A stretch of 23,686 nucleotides of DNA from Gemmatimonadota bacterium (GTDB lineage Bacteria; Gemmatimonadota; Gemmatimonadetes; Longimicrobiales; Gaopeijiaceae), in contig WGEM01000525.1 of assembly GCA_015492755.1 (NCBI GenBank), positions 1-23,686 of the forward strand. Direction: 5' to 3'. This document shows, piece by piece, positions 1,421 to 10,568 of the stretch. Position 1 is the stretch's first letter. Each line of letters begins with the position of its first letter. Below the pieces are notes generated by a model, which ran no database searches, was not told the DNA's origin, and worked only from the letters and a program-made list of their open reading frames with translations. The position numbers and the translations under genes are program-made.

Positions 1421-2485
1421 GTGAACCCCAACCCCTCCCTTCGAGCCCGCGTGCGCGCCGCCGCGGAGAACCGTCCCGGGGTCTACGCCATGTACGGGCC
1501 GGGCGACGAGCTGCTGTACGTGGGGAAGTCGGTGCGGGTGCGCACGCGGCTCCTCTCCTACTTCCGGGCGGAACGCGGCGAGAAGGCGTGGGAACTCATC
1601 CGTGAGACCTCCCGCATCGAGTGGAAATACGTTCCGAATGAGTTCGAGGCGCTCATCCGTGAGATGAAGCTCATCCAGAACCGGCAGCCGCGGTTCAACG
1701 TGCAGCACAAGCGCAAGCGGATCTACGCGTTCGTCAAGGTGACGCGCGAGCCCGCTCCACGGGTGCTCCCGGTGAGTCGGGTGGTCCCGGACGGCGCCAC
1801 CTACTACGGGCCCTTCCCCCGGGTGCGCGCCCTGGCCCGCACCATCCGGGAGCTCGCCCAGGTGCTGGGGTTGAGGGACTGCCCCGCCTCCACGCCCGTC
1901 TTCTTCGCCGATCAGCTGGAGATCTTCCGCGGCGGCCGACCGCCGCGTTGCATCCGCGCGGACCTGGGCACCTGCCTGGCGCCGTGCTGCGGGAGGCCCA
2001 GCGTCGCCGAGTACGACGCCGTGGTGCGGCTGGCGACTCGCTTCCTCGAGGGGCGAGCCGAGGCGCCCCTCCGGGAACTGGAGGCGCGCATGCGGGAGGC
2101 GGCGCGCCGCATGGACTTCGAGTACGCCTCCGTGCTGCGCGACCGCCTGGAGCGCCTCCGGCGCTTCCGGGACGAGCTGGTGGCCTTCCGGGGCCGGGTG
2201 GAGAACCTGACCTTCCTGTACCGGGTGCCGGGCTTCAGGGGGGACGACCGTCTCTACGCCATCCGCCAGGGGCGCATCCGCGCGGCACTCCCGTATCCCA
2301 GGGGCGCGGCGGCCCGCCGGCGGGCGCGGGCGCGGGTAGCCGAGGTGTTCACCACCGGCGACCCGGGGCCCGAGGGTTTGCGTCCGGAGGAGGCAGCCGA
2401 GATTCTACTGGTTTCCCGCTGGTTCAGACTTCGCCCGCGAGAGCGCAAACGCACGGTGCCGCCGGAGCGGTGGCTCCAGGCGTAG
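1421..2485 (+). CDS. UvrC-like GIY-YIG nuclease lacking the C-terminal half of UvrC
   Basis: Taking GTG 1421 (GAGAGG just upstream) gives 354 residues; an in-frame ATG at 1298 would add 41 residues of low-complexity sequence and is less likely. Residues 20-35 hold the GVY...YVG form of the GIY-YIG motif, Arg39 follows, and NEFEALIRE (73-81) carries the metal-binding Glu. Cys154, 177, 185 and 189 (plus 190), in the setting LRDC...RC...GTCLAPC, match the UvrC cysteine cluster reported to bind an Fe-S centre. A UVR motif (about 207-250, ending in YASVLRDRLERLRRFRDEL) would contact UvrB. After that only about 100 residues follow, so the RNase H-like 5'-incision domain and the HhH pair of full UvrC (about 600 residues) are absent. 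By analogy with Cho it would make only the 3' incision in nucleotide excision repair; that role is inferred. Confidence 0.85.
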   Translation: MNPNPSLRARVRAAAENRPGVYAMYGPGDELLYVGKSVRVRTRLLSYFRAERGEKAWELIRETSRIEWKYVPNEFEALIREMKLIQNRQPRFNVQHKRKRIYAFVKVTREPAPRVLPVSRVVPDGATYYGPFPRVRALARTIRELAQVLGLRDCPASTPVFFADQLEIFRGGRPPRCIRADLGTCLAPCCGRPSVAEYDAVVRLATRFLEGRAEAPLRELEARMREAARRMDFEYASVLRDRLERLRRFRDELVAFRGRVENLTFLYRVPGFRGDDRLYAIRQGRIRAALPYPRGAAARRRARARVAEVFTTGDPGPEGLRPEEAAEILLVSRWFRLRPRERKRTVPPERWLQA

Positions 2486-2528
2486 CGCCGGGCGCACGCC
2501 CACGTTCACCGTCCGTCCGGAGCATGCC

Positions 2529-3521
2529 ATGACGCGACGCCCGTCGATCAAGGTGTTCGACGAATGGCGCATCCGTCAGGCGGTGACCGACGCGCTGGCG
2601 CTCCACTGCGCCGAGCGGGCGTTCCGGGCGCTGGGCAAGGGGCTCGTCACCGTGCCGCCGCCGCTGGGATGGGAGTTCCCGCGTGTTCATGGCGAGGTGC
2701 ATATCAAGGGCGCCTACGTGCACGGATCCCCCATGTTCACCCTCAAGATCGCCACGGGCTTCTACGGCAACGTCGAACTGGGCGTGCCCACCGGCTCCGG
2801 CTTCGTGATGATCTTCGACGCGGAGACCGGCTTTCCCCGGGGGATCCTGGCAGACAACGGCTACCTCACGGACCTGCGCACCGGGGCGGCAGGGGCGCTG
2901 GCGGCGGGAAGGCTCACACCCGCTCGCCCCCTCCGCGTCGCCATCCTGGGCGCCGGCGTGCAGGGTCAGATGCAGCTCCGGATGCTTCGCCAGGTCCGGG
3001 AGGTCGAGCACCTCCACCTCTGGTCCCGTACCCGCAGCCGCGCGCTGCGCTGGCGCGAGAAGCTGCTGGAGGCCGGGGATGTCGGCGTCGATGCCCACGA
3101 GACTCCCGCCGACGCGGTACGGGATGCGGATCTGGTCATCACCGCGACGCCGGCGCGCGAGCCCCTCATCTGCGAAGGGATGCTCCGCCCCGGAGCCACC
3201 GTCATCGCCGTGGGATCCGACGGTCCCGACAAGCAGGAACTCGCGGCCGCGGTGGTGGCAGGCGCCGACAAGGTGGTCACGGACCTCACGAGTCAGTGCG
3301 TGCGCCTGGGCGAGCTCCACCACGCGGTGGACGCAGGCCTGATGCGCGAGGAGGACGTCCACGCCGAGCTGGGAGAGATCGTGCTGGACGAGAAGCCCGG
3401 CCGTGAGGGCGACGAGACCATCGTCTGCGACCTCACCGGGGTGGGCGCTCAGGACGCCACGCTGGGCGAGGCCGTCTTCGTGGAGCTGGCGGGTCAGGAT
3501 GCGAGGCTGGGCGATGCGTAG
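2529..3521 (+). CDS. Ornithine cyclodeaminase / mu-crystallin family NAD(P)-dependent enzyme
   Basis: The 330-residue product is close to the usual family length. It shows the family landmarks in order: HIKGAY (Lys60) and LKIATGFYGN (Lys73) in the substrate half, DLRTGAAGALA (Arg117), the Rossmann turn GAGVQG at 141-146, ITATPAREPLI, and the C-terminal DLTGVGAQDATLGEAV signature. Members include ornithine cyclodeaminase (ornithine to proline plus ammonia), alanine dehydrogenase of the archaeal type, and enzymes acting on other amino or imino acids, so the substrate is not predictable here. It is cytosolic. The ATG at 2529 has GGAG at 2519-2522. It lies 43 bp after the UvrC-like gene on the same strand, so the two may be cotranscribed, but no functional link is evident. 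It converges on the penicillin-acylase gene with only 21 bp between stops. Confidence 0.88.
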   Translation: MTRRPSIKVFDEWRIRQAVTDALALHCAERAFRALGKGLVTVPPPLGWEFPRVHGEVHIKGAYVHGSPMFTLKIATGFYGNVELGVPTGSGFVMIFDAETGFPRGILADNGYLTDLRTGAAGALAAGRLTPARPLRVAILGAGVQGQMQLRMLRQVREVEHLHLWSRTRSRALRWREKLLEAGDVGVDAHETPADAVRDADLVITATPAREPLICEGMLRPGATVIAVGSDGPDKQELAAAVVAGADKVVTDLTSQCVRLGELHHAVDAGLMREEDVHAELGEIVLDEKPGREGDETIVCDLTGVGAQDATLGEAVFVELAGQDARLGDA

Positions 3522-10220: not shown

Positions 10221-10568
10221 ATGATCGAGCTCATCTGCACCCGTACCTGAAGCACCTGTCGCAAGGCGGTCGCCTTGTTGGACGGGAAGGGGATCGAGTA
10301 CCGGTACCGTGACTACCGCAAGGAACCCCTCAGCGAGGACGAGCTGAAGAAGCTCTTCCGGAAGCTGGGTGTGCGCCCCCGCGACCTGTTGCGGCGTAAC
10401 GACCGGGCCTACAAGGAACTGGGGCTCAGCGGCGAGGAAGACGACGCGGTACTCATCCGCCATATGGCCCGACACCCCACGCTGCTGCAGCGGCCCATCG
10501 CGGTGGCCGGGCGGCGTGCGGTGGTAGGCCGCCCGCCGGAGCGGATCCTGGAGCTGGTGGAGGGCTGA
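10221..10568 (+). CDS. Predicted selenoprotein of the ArsC/Spx (arsenate reductase-like, thioredoxin-fold) family; TGA at 10248-10250 read as selenocysteine
   Basis: From ATG 10221 the frame reads MIELICTRT, then TGA at codon 10, then STCRKAVALLDGKGIEYRYRDY and on to the stop at 10566-10568 (115 residues counting Sec). In the ArsC/Spx family residue 10 is the redox Cys (as in ...NPRC-S-x-S/C-R-K-A), so the TGA replaces exactly the catalytic residue and leaves a Sec-x-x-Cys pair (residues 10 and 13). The rest is intact: KEPLSEDELKKLFRKLG, VRPRDLLRRN, HPTLLQRPI and RPPERIL keep the three family arginines. The nearest upstream in-frame stop is at 10170 and no other ATG lies between, so this start is forced. 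A SECIS-like hairpin follows the TGA. The Shine-Dalgarno is weak (AGG 10209-10211). Likely a cytosolic thiol/selenol oxidoreductase; arsenate reduction is only one option. Standard gene callers would start at TTG 10275 or miss it. A TGC-to-TGA error or pseudogene is the alternative. Confidence 0.8.
10248..10285 (+). promoter_or_regulatory. Candidate bacterial SECIS element just downstream of the TGA codon
   Basis: CAAGGC (10262-10267), loop GGTC (10268-10271) and GCCTTG (10272-10277) form a perfect 6-bp stem with a tetraloop. A G-U pair (10261/10278) and a lower GTC/GAC helix (10258-10260/10281-10283), plus CC/GG beyond, can extend it. Seventeen bases separate the TGA from the loop GG. SelB recognises an apical loop with GGU in the E. 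coli fdhF element, where the spacing is about the same (18 nt). The element lies within coding sequence, as bacterial SECIS elements do. SelB binding itself is inferred. Confidence 0.75.

Follow-up and report, generated by a model that had tools for sequence, protein, structure and literature searches.

A probable selenocysteine at the active site of an ArsC-family protein

A small gene at positions 10221–10568 (forward strand) of the Gemmatimonadota contig WGEM01000525.1 contains a TGA as its tenth codon, raising the question of whether this codon ends translation or specifies selenocysteine (Sec) at the active site of an arsenate reductase (ArsC)-like protein, and what such a protein would do. 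The window, i.e., the whole stretch of DNA analyzed here, comprises 23,686 nucleotides. When the TGA was translated as Sec, the gene encoded 115 residues from an ATG at 10221, and after codon 10 the frame was open up to a terminal TGA stop at 10566–10568. Two TGAs in one gene would thus be read differently, codon 10 (10248–10250) as a residue and the other as the gene's own stop. In an alignment to the structure 1jzw, codon 10 corresponded to the catalytic Cys12 of R773 ArsC. Two Cys residues lie close to it: Cys6 (codon at 10236–10238), four residues before Sec, and Cys13 (10257–10259), which is presumably the resolving thiol of a U-x-x-C site.

The Sec-containing translation matched the Pfam ArsC family (PF03960) with an E value of 3.5e-16 and 59.7 bits, well above the gathering cut-off of 24. 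The best curated model was TIGR00014, arsenate reductase (glutaredoxin), with 97.6 bits, which is below its cut-off of 106.05. Spx membership was rejected, because the scores for Spx/MgsR TIGR01617 (59.7 bits; cut-off, 75.05) and Spx NF002459 (44.3 bits) were under the respective cut-offs, and membership in NF041106 (ArsC_rel_Se_1, ArsC family (seleno)protein), which has UxxC at the same position, was rejected in the same way (20.7 bits; cut-off, 85). The best solved relatives were arsenate reductases (3f0i, 2.8e-18; 1jzw, 2.1e-14), followed by Spx (1.5e-10). Spx/MgsR shares a CxxC-type site and a related fold with the window protein, but by these scores the protein is nearer to, and on the side of, ArsC rather than Spx. 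The eight subfamily members tested, defined below as group A, all scored below the TIGR00014 cut-off, and none of them reached any curated NCBIfam cut-off. Taken with the 45 distinct genomic relatives described in the next section, all the sequence evidence indicates that the gene is a genuine ArsC-family selenoprotein gene, and we infer with great confidence that its UGA is decoded as Sec.

Relatives from three phyla carry TGA at the same codon

Among the matches listed when named genomes were scanned, there were at least four loci (from Polyangiaceae, Acidobacteriota, Gemmatimonadota and Thermoanaerobaculia), and codon 10 was TGA in all four that were listed. Sets of genomes from three phyla were also searched. 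In the window's phylum, 38 of 395 genomes had a match at 1e-10; at 1e-20, matches were present in 28 of 297 genomes of the phylum of locus L020 and in 61 of 282 genomes of the phylum of locus L019. In total, 93 loci were aligned, and 42 match rows remained outside the alignment (11 of 41 from the window's phylum and 31 of 61 from that of L019); a TGA flagged in these match lists may be a terminal stop. Cys6, U or C at position 10, and Cys13 occurred together (C-x3-[U/C]-x2-C) in 49 of the 93 aligned loci. Removal of three duplicates left 46 distinct loci, including the window, which we designated group A and in which Cys6 and Cys13 are constant by choice. Grouped by the search in which they were retrieved, 26 of these loci belong to Myxococcota, 10 to Acidobacteriota and 10 to Gemmatimonadota.

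Codon 10 was TGA in 45 of the 46 group A loci and TGC in one (L108). The frames were intact downstream, except in two loci truncated by contig ends (L041 and L091) and one containing Ns (L128). At the protein level, conservation of codons 1–9 and the first strand extended across the three phyla and included the Cys forms as well as those with TGA. Among database proteins, all 33 full-length Cys forms, which had been picked by their CxxC motif alone, also carried LIC or LVC with Cys6. The preliminary description of this DNA, made from its letters and reading frames, had proposed a selenoprotein of the ArsC/Spx type whose active site is Sec-x-x-Cys, and this proposal is borne out by the 44 other TGA loci, by the covariation of the hairpin and by the Sec genes of the genome (see below). 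Its reading of codon 10 as the catalytic position and of the frame as intact on both sides likewise held, with no decayed frame seen among the relatives.

In a tree of 121 rows that combined group A and other ArsC families, group A and the 33 database Cys proteins formed one clade (77 rows; support, 99/96), and the window protein paired with a protein from Acidobacteriota (98/86). This tree required 23 Sec/Cys changes, of which 8 were forced by well-supported branches. It rests on 114 columns, with the bootstrap unsettled and with L041 and L091 left out. Given such repeated changes, the family could be used to compare an enzyme in its Sec form with the same enzyme in its Cys form. In the group B relatives (mostly EKPTU), the catalytic codon was TGA in some loci and TGC or TGT in others, UxxS forms included. 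Those with TGA (L039, L040, L043, L044, L046–L050, L052–L055, L096 and L099–L101) were UxxC or UxxS, and Cys forms were located nearby in the tree.

A constrained hairpin follows the TGA codon

A hairpin downstream of the TGA had also been proposed in the preliminary description, and a SECIS-like hairpin of seven pairs, the last of which is G-U in the window, was located at 10261–10278. Its 5′ arm (10261–10267) and 3′ arm (10272–10278), both on the forward strand, enclose an apical loop at 10268–10271. The stem, GCAAGGC/GCCUUGC, starts 10 nt past the TGA codon and the GGUC loop starts 17 nt past it; the hairpin was judged by the SECIS rules for distance and loop. In the alignment, the loop was GGTC in 41 of the 45 TGA loci and CGTG or AGTT in the other four. 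The 43 nt starting from the TGA folded at −19.4 kcal/mol (z −2.97), and 2 of 200 shuffles were as good; the hairpins of L034 and L019 also folded, with a z value of −2.29 for the former and a weaker one of −1.87 for the latter.

Pairing was maintained across the family. Among the 315 stem cells of the alignment (seven pairs in 45 TGA loci), 97.8% paired, and three pairs were changed on both sides, whereas sliding the stem by 1–3 columns left only 30–58% of the cells paired. In none of 500 shuffles was the fraction of paired cells, the number of double changes or the covariation score as high as in the real alignment, and 8 of 500 matched the further pair-type count. Because the peptide itself favors some pairing, codons 11–21 were redrawn synonymously from the family's own usage as the null model. 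All seven pairs were formed in 40 of the 45 real members, as compared with 1.4 of 45 expected (3% of the synonymous draws). The codon series GCG-GTC-GCC-TTR was present in 37 of 45 members, where about 1% was expected, and Leu19 was encoded by TTR in 42 of 45, although TTR made up 15% of the later Leu codons. The Cys relative L108 encodes an identical CRKAVALL and keeps complementary bases in six of the seven pairs, indicating that part of the stem stems from the peptide itself; its best fold was a different structure (z 0.23), which, as a single Cys control, is thin. Codon choice beneath the hairpin is constrained.

Selenocysteine machinery in the genome

The window's genome contained selA (546 bits, above the cut-off), selD (387 bits; complement of 2277–3197 of locus L024, on contig C1) and a probable C-terminal piece of selB, a 206-codon stretch at one edge of contig C512 that was weakly identified by an E value of 1.9e-4 and by eye. 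Further matches to the selB model were located on contigs C505, C315, C431 and C352 and at 3781 on contig C99; another match on C99, at 5926, was EF-Tu by eye and was rejected. The gene for tRNA-Sec (selC) was not found in this 82% complete assembly with the covariance model, by which 150 of 666 candidates were scored, nor with a relative's tRNA-Sec as the DNA query, a search that had no positive control. When tRNA-Sec-like matches in the genome were checked with ARAGORN at six loci, they proved to be tRNAs for Ser, Leu and Lys or part of a cluster of other tRNAs, none of them Sec. With respect to the Sec genes for which the preliminary description had suggested a search, selA, selD and a probable part of selB were recovered, and selC was not found in the incomplete assembly.

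In the phylum as a whole, 302 of 395 genomes had tRNA-Sec matches above the Rfam cut-off, of which those near an E value of 1e-8 may be other tRNAs. When genomes were tested singly, tRNA-Sec was found in 14 of 15, comprising all 12 with a group A gene and two of the three with a group B gene. ARAGORN reported a tRNA-SeC with the anticodon TCA in all 14 loci given to it (of 18). No tRNA-Sec match was found in the single contig of genome G184, which carries a group B ArsC relative of the UxxS type with TGA (L040). Several minor observations were made at these loci. The selD gene of the window's genome has its own in-frame TGA (GAGUACK) and looks like a selenoprotein gene itself, and contig C512, which bears the selB piece, also carries a tmRNA. 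In three loci from Acidobacteriota and Myxococcota (L068, L069 and L070), selA adjoins tRNA-Sec; no selA was found next to tRNA-Sec in the flanking sequence of the loci from Gemmatimonadota.

Proposed function and genomic neighborhood

We consider it probable that the gene encodes a Sec-containing oxidoreductase of the glutaredoxin-type ArsC family. In the proposed mechanism, SelB carrying Sec-tRNA would bind the hairpin, and UGA would be decoded as Sec. The selenolate of U10 would then attack an oxyanion bound by R58, R91 and R104, for which arsenate is the most likely candidate; Cys13 (or Cys6) would resolve the adduct to form a selenenyl-sulfide, which would subsequently be reduced by thioredoxin or glutaredoxin. 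The three arginines (codons at 10392–10394, 10491–10493 and 10530–10532, respectively) align with residues 60, 94 and 107 of R773 ArsC, which we take to be its arsenate-binding arginines. In group A, R58 was conserved in 45 of 46 rows, the remaining one having an N-containing codon, and R91 and R104 were each conserved in all 44 rows that reach the position. The window protein and arsenate reductase (glutaredoxin) ArsC (TIGR00014/PF03960; 3f0i, 1jzw and 1i9d) thus share the fold family, as judged by sequence, the catalytic position and the arginine triad. They differ in that the window subfamily has Sec in place of Cys, a UxxC site and Cys6, scores below the TIGR00014 cut-off in the eight members tested and is not located beside Acr3. 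With the triad conserved, arsenate reduction by the window protein is plausible. Arsenate as the substrate is nevertheless the least certain step of this explanation, and we favor it slightly.

The protein might instead be a true ArsC-fold selenoprotein that is not an arsenate reductase and that acts, via Cys6, Sec10 and Cys13, in general selenol/thiol redox reactions or in the reduction of another oxyanion. This reading has a substantial chance of being correct, somewhat short of even, and draws on the neighborhood of the gene as well as on its active site. No ars gene was found among the eight proteins scanned around the gene in the window, which include a CarboxypepD_reg protein, an M28 peptidase, an EVE protein, a methyltransferase and a MatE protein. 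The immediate neighbors of group A genes differed between loci. In an all-versus-all comparison of the flanking ORFs of the 46 loci, from which frames overlapping the gene itself were excluded, recurring neighbors were limited to pairs and one triple, the largest thus occurring in 3 loci (40 clusters inspected), and a conserved operon was rejected. Acr3 was not found in the window's genome. It scored above the cut-off in 13 of the 27 group A genomes examined (of 46) and was not adjacent: in 12 of the 13 it was on another contig or 0.5 Mb off. In the thirteenth, genome G397, Acr3 is at base 413 of its contig, whereas the contig with the group A gene has that gene approximately 42 kb from its edge. 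The sub-cut-off TIGR00014 scores of all eight members tested point in the same direction, as does the position of Cys6, which by offset falls on residue 8 of R773 ArsC, presumably His8. However, arsC genes often stand alone. Conservation of the three arginines that correspond to those of R773 ArsC, together with the identity of the closest solved structures as arsenate reductases, argues against this alternative.

A broader version of the non-arsenate reading, which we regard as rather unlikely and put forward tentatively, is that group A represents a distinct selenoenzyme subfamily with C-x3-U-x2-C on an ArsC scaffold, which is present in three phyla, acts outside arsenic resistance on another oxyanion or on oxidized thiols, and has undergone repeated Sec/Cys swaps. 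If true, such a non-arsenic subfamily would provide a natural experiment on the contribution of selenium to the chemistry of the ArsC scaffold. As a separate observation on gene order, positions 644–1842 of locus L035 (contig C220 of genome G322) contain, in a row on one strand, a group A selenoprotein gene, a DinB-like gene (identified by eye) and an NF041106-like gene, the last of which has its own TGA and scored 77.7 bits against the cut-off of 85.

Probable truncation in the databases

In the protein database, the window's gene is represented by a 97-residue ORF that starts at an internal TTG (10275–10568, forward strand) and is without the active site; we take this TTG to be a mis-called start. 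Among the best 120 of 437 database hits, 33 were full-length Cys forms and 87 were proteins of 94–107 residues that start after the Sec codon, several of them named arsenate reductase. The TGA was checked in the DNA for one of these 87 proteins, the window's own. These short forms are what would be expected if UGA were a real stop, with the 97-residue protein being made from the TTG at 10275, and if everything before it were a relic. We consider this very improbable, because constraint acts on the hairpin, the short form would have no catalytic residue, and the supposed relic, i.e., codons 1–9 and the first strand, is conserved in TGA and Cys forms across three phyla. The prevalence of short forms rather suggests that gene callers usually miss the Sec codon of this subfamily, and many of its database entries are probably truncated.

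The least probable explanation of the TGA is an error in sequencing or assembly, or a pseudogene, since 44 further loci in the three phyla share this codon and the downstream frame is intact with its residues conserved, even though the source assembly (2.96 Mb in 637 contigs; completeness, 82%; contamination, 6%) is a fragmented one, and even though the pairing with an Acidobacteriota protein in the tree could indicate that the contig is foreign, in which case it would still carry a selenoprotein gene.

Relation to known ArsC-like selenoproteins

ArsC-family selenoproteins have been known since 2005, and the gene opens no new class. Fourteen UxxS arsenate reductase sequences were reported from the Sargasso Sea in 2005 (PMC1088965). 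Both Desulfotalea psychrophila and Desulfuromonas acetoxidans appear in tables of a 2006 study, the former with an ArsC-like selenoprotein and the latter with a distant homolog of ArsC (PMC1794560), and the 2008 GOS study lists "ArsC 1" (UxxS, 77 sequences) and "Arsenate reductase 2" (cd03032, UxxC, 42 sequences) (PMC2398784). UxxS and UxxC rows also appear in reviews from 2022 (PMC9312934) and 2026 (PMC13188914), the latter naming TIGR00014 and NF041106. The UxxS type (PMC1088965, PMC2398784, PMC13188914) shares Sec at the ArsC catalytic position with the window subfamily, but has Ser where the latter has Cys three residues on. Arsenate reductase 2 of GOS shares both UxxC and the ArsC/Spx domain (PMC2398784) and may be identical with the subfamily described here. 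No paper on the subfamily was found in the literature searched, which reaches few subscription papers. What is new is the delimitation of the C-x3-U-x2-C subfamily and its likely truncation in the databases, with a well-supported ArsC-family selenoprotein documented in genomes of three phyla.

The preliminary description had stated, with due reserve, that ArsC-like selenoproteins were predicted only from metagenomic data. This was mistaken: they have been reported from named genomes since 2006, and the family NF041106 exists and matches another gene of the window's own genome. The NF041106 cut-off was exceeded in 67 of the 395 genomes of the phylum, the window's genome included. There, the second ArsC-family selenoprotein gene is located at 486–803 of contig C293, scored above the cut-off (109.5 and 117.3 bits) and, counted within the stretch that matches, has TGA as its tenth codon.
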